A DNA stretch of 64,000 nucleotides, from positions 62,001 to 126,000 of the forward strand of contig QHYI01000109.1 in assembly GCA_003223245.1 (NCBI GenBank). The letters are read 5' to 3'. The stretch's first letter is position 1. The number at the start of each line of letters is the position of its first letter. The stretch comes from Acidobacteriota bacterium. GTDB lineage: Bacteria; Acidobacteriota; Terriglobia; Acidiferrales; UBA7541. A model generated the notes under the pieces. That model saw nothing but the letters and a program-made list of their open reading frames with translations, had not been told where the DNA came from and searched no databases. Both the position numbers and the translations under genes were made by a program. Shown one piece after another: positions 55,890-63,663 of this stretch.

Positions 55890-57026
55890 ATGGCTCACCG
55901 CTTCACTATTGGCGTCGAAGAAGAATTCCAAATCATCGATCCTGCGACTTGCGAACTGCGTTCGCACGTCAGCCAGCTCATTTCCCAGGCCTCGGCGGAC
56001 ATCGTCGAACAAGTCAAGCCCGAGTTGCACCAATCCATCGTCGAAACGGGCACGCGGATTTGCGACAGCGTCAGCGATTTGCGCATTGAAATGCACCGCA
56101 CGCGGGGAGAATTGGTAGCCGCGGCAGAACGCGCGGGCCTGCAAGTCGCCGCGGCGGGAACACACCCGTTTTCGAGCTGGATCGACCAAGTCATCTCCCC
56201 TGGGGAGCGTTACCAGCATATCGTCGACGAAATGGGCCAACTGGCGAGGTCGCTGCTGATCTTCGGCATGCACGTGCACGTGGCCATGCCGGACAAGCAG
56301 ACGACGATTGATTTGATGAACGGTGTGCGTTATTTCCTGCCGCATCTGCTGGCGCTTTCCACCAGTTCGCCTTTCTGGATGGGCCGGAACACGGGGCTGA
56401 AATCGTTCCGCACTACCGTGTTTCGCCGTTTTCCGCGAACGGGCGTCCCGGAACAGTTCGAATCCTGGAGCGCCTACGAAAATTTTGTGAATTTGCTGGT
56501 GAAGCTGCACTGCATCGATAACGGCAAGAAAATCTGGTGGGACGTGCGGCCGCATCCGATGTTCCGCACGCTGGAGTTCCGGATGTTCGATGTGTGCACC
56601 AAGGTCGAGGAAGCGGTGGCCATTGCGGCGTTGGCCCAAGCGATTATTGTGAAGCTGCACCGGCTGTACACCTTGAATCAGAGCTGGCGGCTGTACCGCC
56701 GGGCGCTCATCGAAGAGAACAAATGGCGCGCGGCGCGTTACGGCATCGACGGCAACCTCATCGACTTCGGCAAAGAAGCGGAAGTGGATATGCGGCAATT
56801 GATTCCGGAATTGCTGGAGCTGGTGGACGACGTGGTCGACGACCTGGGAAGCCGCGGCGCTGTCGAGTATGTCCACACGATCCTAAAAGAAGGCACGAGC
56901 GCAGACCGCCAACTGCGCGTTTATCAGGAAGCAGGAGATTTGAAAGAGGTGGTGCGCCATCTGGTTGCGGAAACCCGCGCTGGCGTGACCGAGCCGCGAA
57001 CTTCTTCGGCGCACGCCGTGAATTGA
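55890..57026 (+). CDS. Carboxylate-amine ligase, GCS2/YbdK type
   Basis: The protein has 378 residues from the ATG at 55890, with CTCGGAGGG upstream. It belongs to the glutamate-cysteine-ligase type 2 fold: RFTIGVEEEFQIIDP is the metal-binding start, RIEMHRTRGELVAAAERAG and AAGTHPFSSW follow, then IFGMHVHVAMPDKQT and WWDVRPHPMFRTLEFRMFDV. It joins an amino acid carboxylate to an amine using ATP, with gamma-glutamyl products in known relatives. It opens a run of ligase genes and starts 180 bases from the divergent isomerase gene. Confidence 0.9.
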   Translation: MAHRFTIGVEEEFQIIDPATCELRSHVSQLISQASADIVEQVKPELHQSIVETGTRICDSVSDLRIEMHRTRGELVAAAERAGLQVAAAGTHPFSSWIDQVISPGERYQHIVDEMGQLARSLLIFGMHVHVAMPDKQTTIDLMNGVRYFLPHLLALSTSSPFWMGRNTGLKSFRTTVFRRFPRTGVPEQFESWSAYENFVNLLVKLHCIDNGKKIWWDVRPHPMFRTLEFRMFDVCTKVEEAVAIAALAQAIIVKLHRLYTLNQSWRLYRRALIEENKWRAARYGIDGNLIDFGKEAEVDMRQLIPELLELVDDVVDDLGSRGAVEYVHTILKEGTSADRQLRVYQEAGDLKEVVRHLVAETRAGVTEPRTSSAHAVN

Positions 57027-57174
57027 GCCGTCCGTTGTCAGCGGTTGTTTCTCAGTTTCCAGCGGAAGAAGCGATTGGACGTTCAATGAAATTGGTTGAG
57101 GAACGTTGTTTCGCCCATTGAGAACTGATCCCTGAAAGTGGAAAGTCCATCAGTCGTACGTCGCAGGAGCAACA

Positions 57175-58206
57175 ATGAAAAAGATTGGCCTTCTCTGCGG
57201 ACGGGAATACAGCTTTCCTCCGGCGTTTATCGTGAAAGTGAACGAGCTAGGGAAGAAAGACGGCGTGGCCGCGGAATTCGTGAAGCTGGGCGGCACGCCC
57301 ATGGGCGAGCCGGCGAAGTACAGCGTGATTGTCGATCGCATCTCGCACGAGGTCGCATATTACCGCGGGTTTTTGAAGCACGCCGTCCTAGAAGGCACGT
57401 ACGTCATCAACAACCCCTTCTGGTGGTCGGCCGACGACAAATATTTCAACTACTCGGTCGCGACAAAGCTGGGCATCGCGATTCCAAAGACCATCTTGCT
57501 CCCGCAAAAGGGTTATCCCGCGGATGTCGACATCACTTCCGAGTCGCTCCACAACCTGGAATATCCTCTGGATTGGGAAGGCATGTTGGATTACGTCGGG
57601 CGGCCGGCAATCCTCAAGCCGTTTTCCGGCGGAGGCTGGAAACACGTCTACAAGGTCCACAACAAGCTGGAGTTGCTGGCCGCGTATGACCAGACCTCGC
57701 CGTACTGCATGACGCTGCAGCAGTTCATTGATTTCTCGCAATACGTGCGCTGCTTCAGCTTCGGCAAGACGGACATTATTCCCGTTCATTACGATCCAAA
57801 GGAACGGAAATATTTGGTTGACCATGCGTATTTAGCGTCAGAACTGGGCGTGCGCATCGTGAAGGATGCGCAGATCATCAATCAGGCGCTCGGCTATGAG
57901 ATGAATACCATCGAATTTGCCATCCAGGATGGCGTACCCTATGCCATTGATTTTTTGAATCCTGCGCCGGATTTCGAACGCGATCGCATCACGGAATTCT
58001 ATTTCGAGCTCGTGGTGGAAAAAATGGCGCGCCTGGTCATCGACCGCGCTCTTCATGGTCAGGCTTATAATTCCTGGCCCCGCTGGGAAGAAATGCTGGG
58101 AATGGGCGCCGCCGGAGGATTTACGGGAGCGCCCAAGAGTGCGGCGTCGGGACAAAAATCGGGCGCGGTTCCGGCATGGAGTTCGCCGCCAGCGCAAGGA
58201 TCGTAA
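57175..58206 (+). CDS. ATP-grasp ligase (RimK-like), unknown product
   Basis: The protein has 343 residues. The ATP-binding core is RPAILKPFSGGGWKHVYKVH, with Lys and a Gly-rich loop. The distal part MNTIEFAIQDGVPYAIDFLN followed by PAPDFERD provides the metal-binding Glu and Asn/Asp pattern of ATP-grasp enzymes. The N-terminus IGLLCGREYSFPPAFIVKVN is a pre-ATP-grasp-like fold. The last 35 residues are Gly/Ala/Pro-rich and probably disordered. It would ligate a carboxylate to an amine via an acyl phosphate. Three bases separate it from the next gene. Confidence 0.75.
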   Translation: MKKIGLLCGREYSFPPAFIVKVNELGKKDGVAAEFVKLGGTPMGEPAKYSVIVDRISHEVAYYRGFLKHAVLEGTYVINNPFWWSADDKYFNYSVATKLGIAIPKTILLPQKGYPADVDITSESLHNLEYPLDWEGMLDYVGRPAILKPFSGGGWKHVYKVHNKLELLAAYDQTSPYCMTLQQFIDFSQYVRCFSFGKTDIIPVHYDPKERKYLVDHAYLASELGVRIVKDAQIINQALGYEMNTIEFAIQDGVPYAIDFLNPAPDFERDRITEFYFELVVEKMARLVIDRALHGQAYNSWPRWEEMLGMGAAGGFTGAPKSAASGQKSGAVPAWSSPPAQGS

Positions 58207-58209
58207 CCC

Positions 58210-59601
58210 GTGACCACGGCTCCCACACCTTTACCTCCTTGTTCGCCGGCGGAGGATTGGCATGAAATCTTGAAGCCGATGCTCTTGCGCATGCCGGAGC
58301 TTCCCGAGGATTTGTTCCGACGCATGCGCGGGGCCAAATTGACTTTTGGCCAGCGCGTCCACTGCCCTTTCCTGCGGCCGTTTTTTCTCTCTCCCGAAGA
58401 CGAAGAGCACGTCCGAACCGTGGCGGAGACCATTGCCGAACTTGGCGAACGCGTGGTGCTTGCGGCCTTGGAGGACAAGCACGTTTTCGCGCAACTGCAT
58501 TTGCGCGAGGAGGAGGAACGGCTCGCGCGTATCCCCGTCGGCCTTGGCCCGGCCAGCACAGCAGCACGGCTTGATGCGTTCTTGCTCCCTGATTCCTTGA
58601 GATTTGCCGAATACAACGCGGAATCGCCGGCAGGTCCCGGCTATGCGGAAGCACTCGCGGAAATTTTCAACGACCTTCCGATGATGGGGCAGTTTGCCCG
58701 AAAATATCAAGTGCATCGGTATTCGCTGACTGCCAGATTGCTTGAGGCGCTGCTCCAGAGCTACCGGGATTCGGGGGGCTCGGCGGAAAAACCGCAAATC
58801 GCCATTGTGGATTGGGAAGAGGTTCCCACATGGAGCGAATTTGAGATTCTCCAGGCGCGCTTCGAGAAGATGGGGATTCCTACGCTGCTTGCCGATCCGC
58901 GTCAGCTCGAATGGGATGGAAAGCACCTGGTCGTGGCGGGCAAAAGAATTGATCTGGCGTACCGGCGCGTGCTAATCAATGACATCGTGGCTAAGCCGGT
59001 GGAGTGTGCGGCGCTAGTAAAAGCCTACACGGCTGGCGCCGTGTGCGTGGCGAATAGTTTTCGCTGCAAAATCCCGCATGTGAAAACGTTCTTTGCTGTT
59101 CTCACCGACGAGCAAAACGGGAACCTCTTCTCGCTCAGCGAGCGCGAGATCATTCGCAAGCACATCCCGTGGACGCGCGTGGTTGCGGATGTTCAGACCG
59201 CCCATTACGGCGAGCATGTGGAACTGCTGGACTTTATCCGCAAGGAGCGCGAGAAGCTAGTGTTGAAGCCCAGCGATGAATACGGCGGCTCAGGCGTGAC
59301 CCTCGGATGGGAAACCGGAGAAGCGGCCTGGGAGGAAGCCATCGAACGCGCGCTGACAGCAAAGAATGGCGTGTGGATTGTGCAGGAGCGGATCCCCGTT
59401 CGCCGCGAATTCTTCCCTTACATTGCTGATGTAGGCACAGTCGATTACCGCGAAATGCTGGTGGATTTTGCGCCGTACTTATTCCGCGGGAAACTGTGCG
59501 GCTTTCTCACGCGGCTAAGTTCGACGGGACTCGCTAACGTCACCAGCGGCGGCGGACAGGTGCCGGCGTTCCGGGTTTCTCTCAGAAACACCGCCAACTA
59601 A
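58210..59601 (+). CDS. Second ATP-grasp-like ligase, probably circularly permuted type
   Basis: The protein has 463 residues from a GTG at 58210 just three bases after the previous gene; AAGGATCG lies inside the upstream end. FAEYNAESPAGPGYAEALAE resembles the D-x-N-S/E-P-A-G segment of the circularly permuted ATP-grasp family (glutathionylspermidine-synthase-like). VLKPSDEYGGSGVTLGWETG gives the ATP-binding Lys and Gly-rich loop near the C-terminus, and WIVQERIPVRREFFPY the strand after it. It is distinct from the preceding ATP-grasp protein, so the cluster has two different ligases besides the GCS2 enzyme. Confidence 0.72.
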   Translation: MTTAPTPLPPCSPAEDWHEILKPMLLRMPELPEDLFRRMRGAKLTFGQRVHCPFLRPFFLSPEDEEHVRTVAETIAELGERVVLAALEDKHVFAQLHLREEEERLARIPVGLGPASTAARLDAFLLPDSLRFAEYNAESPAGPGYAEALAEIFNDLPMMGQFARKYQVHRYSLTARLLEALLQSYRDSGGSAEKPQIAIVDWEEVPTWSEFEILQARFEKMGIPTLLADPRQLEWDGKHLVVAGKRIDLAYRRVLINDIVAKPVECAALVKAYTAGAVCVANSFRCKIPHVKTFFAVLTDEQNGNLFSLSEREIIRKHIPWTRVVADVQTAHYGEHVELLDFIRKEREKLVLKPSDEYGGSGVTLGWETGEAAWEEAIERALTAKNGVWIVQERIPVRREFFPYIADVGTVDYREMLVDFAPYLFRGKLCGFLTRLSSTGLANVTSGGGQVPAFRVSLRNTAN

Positions 59602-59706
59602 CTCTCAATCAAGCGGGAGGTTTTGCCCGTCCCTTCGACCGGTGGAATAAACGCCCGAGCAAAACGACCTTGCCAGAAATTCGGCCGTTTCAAGTACACT
59701 TTTGAA

Positions 59707-60732
59707 ATGGACTTCGGGACTCCCGACGCAGAGTTGATGCCAGGCGCGCGCAACGCCGTCGAGACCTGTCTCGGTGTGCGCCGCGACGAACAGGTCGCGC
59801 TGATTGCCGACGAAGCAAGCAGGGCGGTTGCGGCTAGCATTGCCGCTGCAGTGGACGAACGCGACGCGCGGTGCAGGAAGCTGTTGCTGGAGTCTTTTGG
59901 CCCGCGCCCAATGGCGGCTGCTCCGAAAGGAGTTTTGAGCGCGCTCGAGACGGCCGACGTGGGCGTCCTGTGCATGACGGCGGAGCCGGGCGAACTTGCT
60001 GCACGCATGGCCATCGTGAAAGTGGTCGAGCGCTGCCAGATTCGCTACGCACACATGGTGGGCGTGACGCCGCAGATCATGCAGCAGGGCATGCGCGCGG
60101 ATTACCGCATGGTGGATCGCTTGAGCGACAAGCTGCGCCAACGCATGCTGCGCGCCAAAACTCTAACAGTGAAGACCGAAGCAGGCACAAAGTTTGACGC
60201 GCACTTTGACGGGCAGCTCGATTGGGTGAAGACCAGCGGGCTGATCAACCCGCGCTACTGGTCGAATCTTCCAGCGGGCGAAGTTTTTACGACACCCGCA
60301 ACGGTGGACGGCACATTCGTTTGCGATGCGACGGCAGGCGACCACTTCAACGGAAAGTACGGGGACCTGCAGTCCACACCGCTCACGCTGACGATCAAAA
60401 GCGCGCGATTGGTGAATGTTGCGTGCGCGCGCAAGGATTTGAAGCAGGAGTTTTGGGATTATTGCCACACCGATGAAAACAGTGACCGCGTCGGAGAGCT
60501 GGCATTTGGAACAAATCTTGGATTAACCGAAATGATTGGCGTGCTGCTCCAGGACGAAAAGTTTCCCGGCGTACATCTCGCGTTCGGCGATCCGTATGGC
60601 AGCCAGACGCACGCCGACTGGAAATCCACTACGCACGTCGACGTGCTGACCCGCAATTGCGACGCCTGGATCGACGATGACCTGGTTATTGAAAAGGGCC
60701 GCTACCAACTCGGCCACCTCGGCTTAGCCTAA
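59707..60732 (+). CDS. M29-like aminopeptidase
   Basis: The protein has 341 residues from the ATG at 59707; a TTG at 59623 with GGGAGG just before it is an alternative. NLPAGEVFTTP carries the first metal-binding Glu of the M29 thermophilic aminopeptidases. GELAFGTNLGL, DEKFPGVHLAFGDP and SQTHADWKSTTHVDV provide the remaining Glu, His and Asp region. The family uses a cobalt or zinc pair to remove N-terminal residues from peptides. Its position after three amide ligases suggests trimming or recycling of the product. Confidence 0.75.
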   Translation: MDFGTPDAELMPGARNAVETCLGVRRDEQVALIADEASRAVAASIAAAVDERDARCRKLLLESFGPRPMAAAPKGVLSALETADVGVLCMTAEPGELAARMAIVKVVERCQIRYAHMVGVTPQIMQQGMRADYRMVDRLSDKLRQRMLRAKTLTVKTEAGTKFDAHFDGQLDWVKTSGLINPRYWSNLPAGEVFTTPATVDGTFVCDATAGDHFNGKYGDLQSTPLTLTIKSARLVNVACARKDLKQEFWDYCHTDENSDRVGELAFGTNLGLTEMIGVLLQDEKFPGVHLAFGDPYGSQTHADWKSTTHVDVLTRNCDAWIDDDLVIEKGRYQLGHLGLA

Positions 60733-60855
60733 TTTAACCACACCGGGGAATTATTCCCATCGAACATCGTCCCTTGTATGCTTAAGGGGATTTGTGCAAT
60801 GCCGCGCTATTTCACTTGTTCTTTCAAGTAGCGCCGAAATTCCCGGAAGGAGTCC

Positions 60856-61614
60856 ATGATGCGAAGCCAAATTGTAGGCACGACGATGCCAGTCCTGGAG
60901 TTTGTGCTGGATCCGAATGATTCCATCATTTCCGAAGCGGGCCAGCTTTCCTGGATGGGCAGCTCGATTCAGATGACCACACACACGCAATTTGGCGGCG
61001 GGGGAGGCGTTTGGGGGGCCATAAAGCGCGTTGCGGGCGGCGGAACGCTTTTCATGACGGAATATCGGGCGGTGGGAGTCCCGGGCGAACTGGCATTTGC
61101 CACGAAGCTTCCCGGGCATATTGTGCCCGTCGAGGTCGCAGCGGGGCGCGAATACATGATTCACCGCCACGGGTTTATTTGCTCGACTCCGCAGGTGCAA
61201 ATTGGCGTGGGATTCCAACAATCGCTGGGCGCAGGAATTTTTGGGGGCAGCGGCTTCGTATTGCAGCGCGTCAGCGGTCAAGGAAGCGCGTGGATCGAAC
61301 TTTCTGGGGAATTGGTTGTTAGAGATTTGCAGGCAGGAGAAACGCTGCGCGTCCATCCGGGGCACGTCGGCGCGTTCCAGACCAGCGTGAATTTCGAGAT
61401 CACCACGGTTCCTGGAATCAAGAACATGATCTTTGGTGGCGATGGAATTTTTCTGGCGTCTTTGACCGGCCCCGGCCGCATTTGGCTGCAGACTCTGCCC
61501 ATCGCCAAACTTGCCCACGAGCTGATGGAATATATGCCCATCCAGTCCAGTAAAGCTGCGGAAGGCGGCGTGATCGGAGGAATCGTGGGCTCCATTCTGC
61601 AAGGGTCAGACTAG
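60856..61614 (+). CDS. AIM24-family protein
   Basis: The protein has 252 residues; two adjacent ATGs (60856 and 60859) follow GGAAGGAG. The sequence follows the AIM24/TIGR00266 beta-helix family: VLEFVLDPNDSIISEAGQLS, FGGGGGVWGAIKRVAGGGTL, ATKLPGHIVPVEVA and FLASLTGPGRIWLQTLP. The family is found in bacteria, archaea and mitochondria; its biochemical role is not settled. Gly-rich turns are typical. It ends the plus-strand run of the cluster. Confidence 0.85.
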   Translation: MMRSQIVGTTMPVLEFVLDPNDSIISEAGQLSWMGSSIQMTTHTQFGGGGGVWGAIKRVAGGGTLFMTEYRAVGVPGELAFATKLPGHIVPVEVAAGREYMIHRHGFICSTPQVQIGVGFQQSLGAGIFGGSGFVLQRVSGQGSAWIELSGELVVRDLQAGETLRVHPGHVGAFQTSVNFEITTVPGIKNMIFGGDGIFLASLTGPGRIWLQTLPIAKLAHELMEYMPIQSSKAAEGGVIGGIVGSILQGSD

Positions 61615-61751
61615 CGTCGAGAAAAGTCTCGGCGAACGCCAGCAAGCGACGGAACAGCACGTAAACTCCGTTTTGCAATTCTCAAGCTTCCGGAGGATTG
61701 ACGAATCGCGTGAGATAAGTAGGTGGTTAGGGCGCCCTTCTGCCACCATCT

Positions 61752-62483
61752 TTAGAAAAGCCTCGAAACATATTCCCGCATCTGGTGCTTCCAGTAGCGC
61801 CAGTCGTGGCCGCCTTGCGGGCCCCAATTGTCGAGCGCATGGCGAATGCCTTTGCCGGAAAGCACTTCGGAGAGACGATAGGTAGGCGCGCTATTCTCCC
61901 ACGGGCCGGTGCCGGTCGTGAGGTGAATGTCACAGCCCGCGACCTGCTCGTAAAACCAAGGGTCGCTCATGTTCGCGAGATAATCCACGGGATTGTTGAA
62001 ATAGAAATTGTCGTCGTACAGGCCGTCCATGAAATTGCGCAGATCGTAGATCCCGGACATGGCGAAGCAGCGCTTGATCACGTCGGGATGCTTGAAGAGC
62101 GAGTTCGCCGCGTGGTACGCGCCGAAAGAAGCGCCCATCGTGGAAATGACGATGCCCTGCGTCTGGCAATTATTCCAGATGAAGGGCACGACCTCCTCCC
62201 GCAGATACGAGTCGAACATCGCCTGCATGTGGCTGCGATGAAAAGGATGCGCGGATTTGTTGTAGAAGCTGTGAGCGTTGATGGAGTTCACCGCGTAGAG
62301 CTTGATTTTGCCGCCATCGATGAATTCGCCGAGCGCCTCGACCATGCCCTGGTTTTCGAGTTCCCATTCGTCGCCGCCGCTGGTCGGGAATCCAAGCAGA
62401 GGCGCGCCCCAGTGGCCGTACACCACGACCCCAAGCTCCAAACTAACGCGCTGGGAATACCAGCGCTGATATTCGCGCCTCAT
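61752..62483 (-). CDS. Alpha/beta-hydrolase (esterase of the COG4947 type)
   Basis: The protein has 243 residues from the ATG at 62483. The nucleophile elbow is GASFG in ISTMGASFGAYHAANSLFKH, and the late His is near GPQGGHDWRYWK. The start MRREYQRWYSQRVSLELGVV and LGFPTSGGDEWELENQGMVE match a subfamily of exported-enterochelin-esterase-like and carbohydrate-ester hydrolases. It is convergent with the AIM24 gene and belongs to the ligase cluster by position. Confidence 0.82.
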   Translation of the reverse strand: MRREYQRWYSQRVSLELGVVVYGHWGAPLLGFPTSGGDEWELENQGMVEALGEFIDGGKIKLYAVNSINAHSFYNKSAHPFHRSHMQAMFDSYLREEVVPFIWNNCQTQGIVISTMGASFGAYHAANSLFKHPDVIKRCFAMSGIYDLRNFMDGLYDDNFYFNNPVDYLANMSDPWFYEQVAGCDIHLTTGTGPWENSAPTYRLSEVLSGKGIRHALDNWGPQGGHDWRYWKHQMREYVSRLF

Positions 62484-62640: not shown

Positions 62641-63663
62641 ATGGCTGCATCGACGCACTCGTGCAAACCAAGCCCGGAACGTATTTTCAATACTATGACC
62701 GCCTTTCAGGAAACCGAAGCGCTGAAAGCGGCGATTGAACTGGACATTTTCACGGCTATCGCGGAAGGAGTGCACACCGCTGAATTGCTGGCGGCAAAAA
62801 CGGGAGCGTCAGAACGAGGAATGCGCATTCTGTGCGACTACTTCACGAGCAAAGAATTTCTAACCAAAAAGGGCGATCAATATGCGCTTACTCAGGAGTC
62901 CGCTACTTTTTTGAATCGCCACTCGCCGGCGTGCCTGGCCACGATGGTCAATTTTCTGGCTAGCCCCTGGAGCCGAAGAAATTTTGCGGCCCTGGCAGAA
63001 GCCGTACGCAAGGGCGGGACGGCGAATGGAACAGGAGATCACACCAAATCGCACGAAGAGATATGGGTCAATTTTGCGCGTTCGATGGCGCCGCTGACGA
63101 TACCGGCTGCTGAATTCATCGCGGGATTGCTTCGGGCCGAGGCGGGGCGGCCGTGCAGGGTGCTGGACATTGCTGCCGGACACGGAATGTATGGAATCAC
63201 GGTGGCGAAGCGCAATCCCAACGCGCAGGTCGTCGCTGTGGATTGGCCCGCTGTGCTGGAAGTGACCAAGGAAAACGCCAGGAAATTCGGCGTTGCCGAC
63301 CGTCACACGACGCGCCCGGGCAGCGCGTTTGAGGTTGCATTTGGCAATGGGTATGACCTCGCACTGCTCACGAACATCTTCCATCATTTCGATGTGCCCA
63401 CTTGCGAAAAACTGATGCGCCGGGTCCACGCTGCCTTACAGCCCGGCGGCAAGGCTATCACTCTGGAATTTGTGCCGAATGAAGACCGCGTCTCGCCGCC
63501 GCACGCCGCCGCGTTTAGCCTGGTGATGCTGGCGGGCACGGACGCGGGAGACGCCTATACGTTTTCGCAATATGAGAAGATGTTCGGCAACGCCGGATTT
63601 TCGAAAACGACTTTGCATCCCATTCCCGATATGCCGCAACAAGTTCTGATTTCAGAAAAATAG
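62641..63663 (+). CDS. SAM-dependent methyltransferase, O-methyltransferase-like
   Basis: The 340-residue protein has an N-terminal winged-helix dimerisation part (about 20-100) with ETEALKAAIELDIFTAIAEG, followed by the class I methyltransferase fold: CRVLDIAAGHGMYGITVA is motif I, and LLTNIFHHFDVPTCEKLM with LQPGGKAITLEFVPNED the later motifs. This is the layout of plant-type O-methyltransferases and hydroxyneurosporene-like enzymes. The substrate is unknown. It is next to the ligase cluster, so methylation of the product is possible. Eight bases separate it from the DinB gene. Confidence 0.85.
   Translation: MAASTHSCKPSPERIFNTMTAFQETEALKAAIELDIFTAIAEGVHTAELLAAKTGASERGMRILCDYFTSKEFLTKKGDQYALTQESATFLNRHSPACLATMVNFLASPWSRRNFAALAEAVRKGGTANGTGDHTKSHEEIWVNFARSMAPLTIPAAEFIAGLLRAEAGRPCRVLDIAAGHGMYGITVAKRNPNAQVVAVDWPAVLEVTKENARKFGVADRHTTRPGSAFEVAFGNGYDLALLTNIFHHFDVPTCEKLMRRVHAALQPGGKAITLEFVPNEDRVSPPHAAAFSLVMLAGTDAGDAYTFSQYEKMFGNAGFSKTTLHPIPDMPQQVLISEK

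Follow-up and report, generated by a model that had tools for sequence, protein, structure and literature searches.

Four genes in a 64,000-nucleotide stretch of an Acidobacteriota bacterium genome (GenBank assembly GCA_003223245.1, contig QHYI01000109.1, positions 62,001 to 126,000 of the forward strand; the whole stretch is referred to as the window) form a recurrent set, and we regard it as fairly likely, with a probability of roughly 0.6, that together they make a short peptide or peptide-amine in a single nonribosomal pathway. They encode a GCS2 carboxylate-amine ligase of the YbdK type (A, 55890..57026, plus strand), a non-permuted ATP-grasp ligase (B, 57175..58206, plus strand), which served as the seed of the comparison, a circularly permuted ATP-grasp ligase with the predicted fold of glutathione synthetase, GspS and YgiC (C, 58210..59601, plus strand), and a PF00756 esterase (F, 61752..62483, minus strand). 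The one-pathway idea holds for A, B, C or its counterpart X4, and F; an M29-like aminopeptidase homologue (D, 59707..60732, plus strand) is accessory. Three ligases of two chemistries and a serine esterase that recur in at least two phyla, with no carrier protein, nonribosomal peptide synthetase (NRPS) or precursor among the most recurrent neighbor families (rarer neighbors were not all scanned), point to stepwise nonribosomal synthesis.

The source genome of the window comprises 6.3 Mb across 237 contigs. In a preliminary description of the window, the genes for an AIM24 family protein (E) and a methyltransferase had been grouped with the five above in a single pathway for a small peptide or amide. 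The comparison of gene order and co-occurrence that it had suggested sustains this for A, B, C or X4, and F, which co-localize and co-occur in Acidobacteriota and beyond, with the putative ATP-site residues conserved; the AIM24 protein and the methyltransferase drop out, and D becomes an accessory member.

Co-occurrence across Acidobacteriota genomes

The families were profiled in a sample of 199 Acidobacteriota genomes, which are related to each other. By strict counts, B is present in 53 genomes, A in 57, F in 57, C in 30, X4 in 22 and D in 15; excluded from these counts are six genomes with a distant B (E about 1e-31), eight with a distant C (192-224 bits), one with a 60-bit X4 match (G132), seven with weaker GCS2 matches (<400 bits) and seven with weaker M29 matches (<300 bits). 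The 53 genomes with B carry F in 49 cases, C or X4 in 48, A in 43 and D in 14, and the 146 genomes without strict B carry F in 8, C or X4 in 2, A in 14 and D in 1. Six of these 8 F-bearing genomes possess a distant B, and all six distant-B genomes have F.

For genomes having both genes, the distance of each partner to the best B was determined, with one B per genome and second copies left out. A lies within 10 kb in 28/43 genomes, C in 21/29, X4 in 9/21 and F in only 24/49, so co-occurrence is not driven by physical linkage. The eight genomes with distant C homologues (G002, G018, G032, G058, G100, G109, G118 and G136; best matches 192-224 bits) belong to one family, and they are without B, F, A and X4 at the thresholds used.

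Gene neighborhoods of B

Named genomes were scanned with patterns derived from the window's own B, which gave 595 loci or more. The 80 best were analyzed; these lean towards close relatives of the window, and the closest named relatives of the locus include four (L031-L034) titled Acidobacteria 'gp2'. Partners were sought by tblastn in the stored flanks of B, up to 8 kb, and as many contigs are cut, the numbers of partners missed near B are upper limits. A was found near B in 65 loci, F in 53, D in 52, X4 in 33 and C in 24; C and X4 together account for 57 of the 80 loci, and no locus has both.

Within the window, the GCS2, ATP-grasp, permuted ATP-grasp, M29-like and AIM24 genes lie in this order on one strand, B and C are separated by three bases (B ends at 58206, C starts at 58210), and F is convergent to A-E on the minus strand, all in agreement with the preliminary description; the most likely start of F is 62483. 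Among the 17 closest loci (L031-L047), 14 share the order A-B-C-D; of the remaining three, one contig stops after C and two carry another gene family, termed Y, not D. As this order recurs in close relatives and the core recurs in other phyla, we do not consider the arrangement a product of chance. Close relatives have the layout A-B-C-D followed by convergent F, the largest other group has F-B-A-D-X4, and a few loci have F-B-C-A or B-C-A; outside the close relatives, the most common layout has F ahead of B in the same orientation. Median gaps are 5 bases for B-C, 8 for A-D, 31 for D-X4, 52 for F-B and 57 for B-A.

Besides A, B, C, D, F, X4 and a second esterase, no neighbor family occurs in more than 8 of the 80 loci. 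The product of E (60856..61614, plus strand) matches AIM24 (PF01987) with 213.6 bits (cut-off 25.7), and the O-methyltransferase noted nearby (62641..63663, plus strand) matches PF00891 with 64.2 bits (cut-off 22.3). AIM24 was found near B in only 4/80 loci and the methyltransferase in 6/80, one of them a short match; both were ruled out as pathway members and are regarded as local neighbors outside the conserved set.

Two further neighbors were observed in smaller groups of loci. An RraA-like protein with an apparent signal sequence is encoded directly after B in L081, L084, L104 and L107; the one member scanned (L104) matches PF03737. Downstream of X4-type clusters, two small tandem genes occur in 8/80 loci (L059:7325-8469, L062:14114-15218, L066, L076, L088, L093, L096 and L102), the second of which, read by eye, looks like a LuxR-type response regulator.

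Carboxylate-amine ligase A and ATP-grasp ligase B

The family matches of A mark it as a YbdK-type GCS2 enzyme. It scores 530 bits against the carboxylate-amine ligase family NF010039 (cut-off 371), which places it within that family, and 205.8 bits against GCS2 (PF04107; cut-off 21), and the YbdK structure 1r8g is matched with an E value of 1.3e-48. The alignment of A comprised 21 rows.

For B, no Pfam family was found over its cut-off, and the match to the RimK family (RimK_fam, TIGR00768; E 3.2e-07, 30 bits) lies far under the cut-off of 143.4. The alignment profile of B matches D-Ala-D-Ala ligase (3r23, E 1e-6) and biotin carboxylase (3ouu, E 7.1e-7). Across 28 aligned rows, residues K148, G152-154 (GGG), Q182, R192, E247 and N262 show no variation, and B thereby appears to carry the ATP-grasp signature of a lysine, a hinge and Mg-binding acidic and asparagine residues. 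Here, as for C, D and F below, the roles of invariant residues are assigned by analogy with the families. A search for B on plasmids returned no match.

Permuted ATP-grasp ligases C and X4

C passes the cut-offs of both Pfam families of circularly permuted ATP-grasp proteins, CP_ATPgrasp_2 (PF14403; 36.9 bits, cut-off 32) and CP_ATPgrasp_1 (PF04174; 25.3 bits, cut-off 23.1), as its permuted appearance had led the preliminary description to expect. Residues E134, N136, E138, K353, Q392 and R435 are unchanged in 20/20 aligned rows, and a phmmer search of C against the PDB with E values up to 1 gave no match. X4 is a protein of about 394 residues, exemplified by L090:5189-6370 (plus strand) and present in 32 further loci; the two members scanned have no NCBIfam match and no Pfam match over cut-off. 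X4 takes the place of C in many Acidobacteriaceae and Bryobacterales clusters.

AlphaFold2 models of C and X4 had mean predicted local distance difference test (pLDDT) values of 90.6 and 90.9, respectively. In Foldseek searches, both models land on the permuted ATP-grasp group, with human, yeast and plant glutathione synthetase, 3n6x, YgiC/YjfC, glutathionylspermidine and trypanothione synthetase, and Cp1B as members. Structural alignment of the C model with VIA-align, in which Z values less than 1 apart are considered tied, gave a Z of 30.9 for YgiC (root-mean-square deviation 3.3, 366 aligned), 29.7 for potato glutathione synthetase, 29.4 for GspS, 29.2 for human glutathione synthetase and 25.1 for Cp1B, dropping to 12.7 for 3k1t (a putative gamma-glutamylcysteine synthetase) and 9.6 for LysX. 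The X4 model gave 26.1 for YgiC, 24.6 for human glutathione synthetase, 24.1 for GspS and 22.9 for Cp1B. Both proteins are thus predicted to adopt the permuted ATP-grasp fold over their whole length, and the modeling of C that had been proposed earlier returned this fold with the putative ATP- and Mg-binding residues intact.

In a profile comparison, C and X4 are co-linear over 286 columns with a probability of 80.9. Judged by the models, C and X4 are separate families sharing one fold, which fits both performing the same step without proving it. In a tree of B (76 rows), C-type and X4-type clusters are largely set apart, a single C-type row (L108) branching off basally in the X4 section, and the exchange of C and X4 therefore looks old and rare.

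Esterase F and aminopeptidase homologue D

F belongs to the Esterase family PF00756 (43.7 bits, cut-off 22), confirming the convergent esterase of the preliminary description. S119, the putative nucleophile in the GxSxG motif, and H226 are invariant in 18 rows, as are D174 and D227. A phmmer search of F against the PDB with E values up to 0.01 found no match.

In 19/80 loci, the cluster has a second esterase of PF00756 next to it (e.g. L040:12398-13237, plus strand, and L058:6183-7040, minus strand). It adjoins F or is one open reading frame (ORF) off in 15 of these 19 loci, is usually divergent from F, and accompanies C-type and X4-type clusters alike; six members scanned scored 99.9-111.1 bits. 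In the window's genome it has only distant relatives, which are encoded elsewhere (best E 8e-12).

The ORF of D opens at 59623, and ATG 59707 is its likely start, because close relatives have 341 residues. D scores 35.2 bits against Peptidase_M29 (PF02073; cut-off 27), within the range of that family, and residues E220, E292, H318, H338 and D340 (numbered from 59623), which are putative metal ligands by comparison with AmpS, are constant in 20/20 rows. By profile, the dioxygenase NicX (E 8.9e-06) is a better match than AmpS (E 0.0047), so a peptidase role is only a possibility. We regard D as a lineage-specific addition, which may have peptidase activity.

In three loci without D, its position is occupied by family Y (L046:10304-11440, L079:3602-4735 and L041:7925-8902, plus strand). 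Two members of Y have no Pfam match and two no NCBIfam match, and the best PDB match of one member was no better than E 0.68; by its motifs, Y looks like a class I glutamine amidotransferase. Y may replace D, as judged from these three loci and the reading of its motifs.

Occurrence beyond Acidobacteriota

Outside Acidobacteriota, F was detected in five of six genomes whose loci bear the titles Chloroflexi, Chloroflexales, Obscuribacterales, Armatimonadetes, Ignavibacteriae and, without assignment, 'bacterium'; it was not found in G202, the source of the Ignavibacteriae locus L092. Of 151 Chloroflexota genomes, 39 carry B; the phylum label rests on the title of locus L101 (a Chloroflexales metagenome-assembled genome), and two of the 39 score only 156-160 bits. 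Twenty regions were hand-picked from these 39 genomes, mostly with high scores and long contigs. C adjoins B or is one gene off in 18 of the 20, A is present in 12, and neither D nor X4 was found in any of them. The four most recurrent families in these regions are B, C, A and F, with the next family reaching 5/20.

Proposed pathway

We propose that A would join the side-chain carboxylate of glutamate, or a similar one, to an amine or amino acid; from its family, a gamma-glutamyl bond is the most likely first step. B would add or supply another acyl unit. C, or X4 elsewhere, would attach an amino acid or amine through one more amide bond, in the manner of glutathione synthetase, glutathionylspermidine synthetase and YgiC/YjfC, and by analogy with these nearest folds C may close the chain with such a unit. 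As a serine esterase, F would cleave or transfer an ester on an intermediate or product; its substrate probably derives from the product of B, since in Acidobacteriota no other gene accompanies B as constantly as F, which also goes with distant B. D, where present, could trim or recycle the product, which is probably a gamma-glutamyl peptide or peptide-amine.

Several observations weigh against this proposal. The substrates, the order of steps and the product are our reading of gene families, folds and context, and B, the center of the comparison, resembles no named family more than weakly. The Fisher p values for the four strict pairings with B (9e-38 to 3e-08) ignore the relatedness of the genomes and are hence inflated, and the C/X4 split, which largely tracks the B tree, reflects few events. 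Incomplete sets exist: four genomes have only B and F, five have only distant B and F, F is alone in two and A in 13. C and X4 are both missing from five B genomes and both present in two (G005 and G074), while 39/53 B genomes are without D. In Chloroflexota, F is in the fetched flank of only 7/20 regions.

Alternative explanations

The strongest alternative, which we nevertheless consider unlikely, is that the cluster modifies proteins, with B, as a RimK/TTL-like enzyme, and C decorating a protein with amino acids or amines that D and F take off again. RimK adds glutamate to ribosomal protein S6, and the RimK family is the best named relative of B; the pairing of ligases with hydrolases would also suit this explanation. 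However, the C model is nearest to small-peptide and polyamine ligases (Z 25-31), with Z below 10 for RimK/LysX, GCS2 enzymes of known function use free amino acids, and no other family is frequent enough in the neighborhoods to represent a protein target.

Somewhat less probable still is a glutathione-like pathway for a low-molecular-weight thiol, in which A makes gamma-glutamylcysteine and C or X4 replaces GshB. The enzyme classes of A and C match the pair of a GCS2-type ligase and a permuted glutathione synthetase found in plants, and the N-terminal GshB family PF02951 is present in only 1/53 B genomes. PF02951 is also found in 9 of the 13 genomes with A alone, a hint that this GCS2 subfamily can serve glutathione; seven of these nine also carry a second GCS2 match. 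Against a thiol product, the bacillithiol enzyme BshC is encoded in the window's genome and in 50/53 B genomes, so that a thiol is already predicted there; a thiol pathway would moreover leave the third ligase B and the esterase F unexplained, and C is equally near to glutathione synthetase, YgiC and GspS. BshC occurs in 62/146 genomes without B, and as the genomes are related, phylogeny alone may explain the difference in frequency. The canonical bacterial glutathione pathway was rejected, as GshB (PF02951, E 1e-5) was not found in the window's genome or in 52/53 B genomes; a control search recovered PF02951 in 3 of 14 known genomes, including E. coli.

There is little to recommend a loose neighborhood, in which A, B, C and F each have a housekeeping role of their own and are adjacent by chance in some lineages. 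Gene order does vary, B lacks any partner in the stored flanks of 9/80 loci, and the genomes with only B and F or only A would be expected, but the co-occurrence holds even in genomes where the genes lie apart, and Chloroflexota have the set as well.

Very improbable, finally, is a graspetide-like cluster for a ribosomally synthesized and post-translationally modified peptide (RiPP) with an overlooked precursor: ATP-grasp ligases do install the lactam and lactone links in graspetides (PMC8939145), but the gaps are short and, in 115 cluster gaps taken without flanks, hold no small fragment common to more than 3 other loci (precursors elsewhere were not searched for), and a precursor inside the cluster was judged unlikely. 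A GCS2 enzyme and a permuted ligase are not known as hallmarks of graspetides. The nonribosomal origin advanced in the preliminary description stands to the extent that these gaps contain no conserved small ORF.

Relation to known systems

The nonribosomal pathway proposed here resembles plant glutathione biosynthesis in the enzyme classes of A and C, and the C model aligns with the human (Z 29.2) and potato (Z 29.7) glutathione synthetases. It differs in the third ligase B and the esterase F, in the presence of a bacillithiol enzyme in the same genome, and in a sequence identity of about 12-16% in the structural alignments. With glutathionylspermidine synthetase and the YgiC/YjfC peptide-spermidine ligases, C and X4 share the predicted permuted ATP-grasp fold; unlike these systems, they have no amidase domain and are clustered with a GCS2 enzyme, another ATP-grasp ligase and an esterase. 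A further fold match is Cp1B of the fungal E-64 pathway, an ATP-grasp ligase with a homoglutathione synthetase-like fold in an NRPS-independent route to a small molecule (Z 25.1 for C, 22.9 for X4); according to PMC12568646, its partners are an Fe(II)/alpha-ketoglutarate oxygenase and an ANL-family amide synthetase.

Among the papers listed in a literature search for the gene set, none evidently treated it, and a search for terms in PMC4431377 returned nothing on the set in the text covered. The alternation of C with X4, the genome-wide profile and the fold assignment are results of this analysis. Iyer et al., in Mol Biosyst in 2009, reportedly described neighborhoods of ATP-grasp and GCS2 amidoligases with peptidases and esterases, which may already list part of the set.

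We tentatively suggest, at somewhat less than even odds, that many Acidobacteriota and Chloroflexota use these genes in an unrecognized, widespread route to a gamma-glutamyl tripeptide or peptide-amine; either C or X4 would carry out one of its three amide-forming steps, and a dedicated esterase would be as constant a member as the ligases. B is present in about a quarter of the sampled genomes of both phyla (53/199 and 39/151), which are abundant and poorly characterized. If this is true, a small metabolite shared by both would be ecologically relevant, and the pathway would be a source of new amide-bond enzymes.

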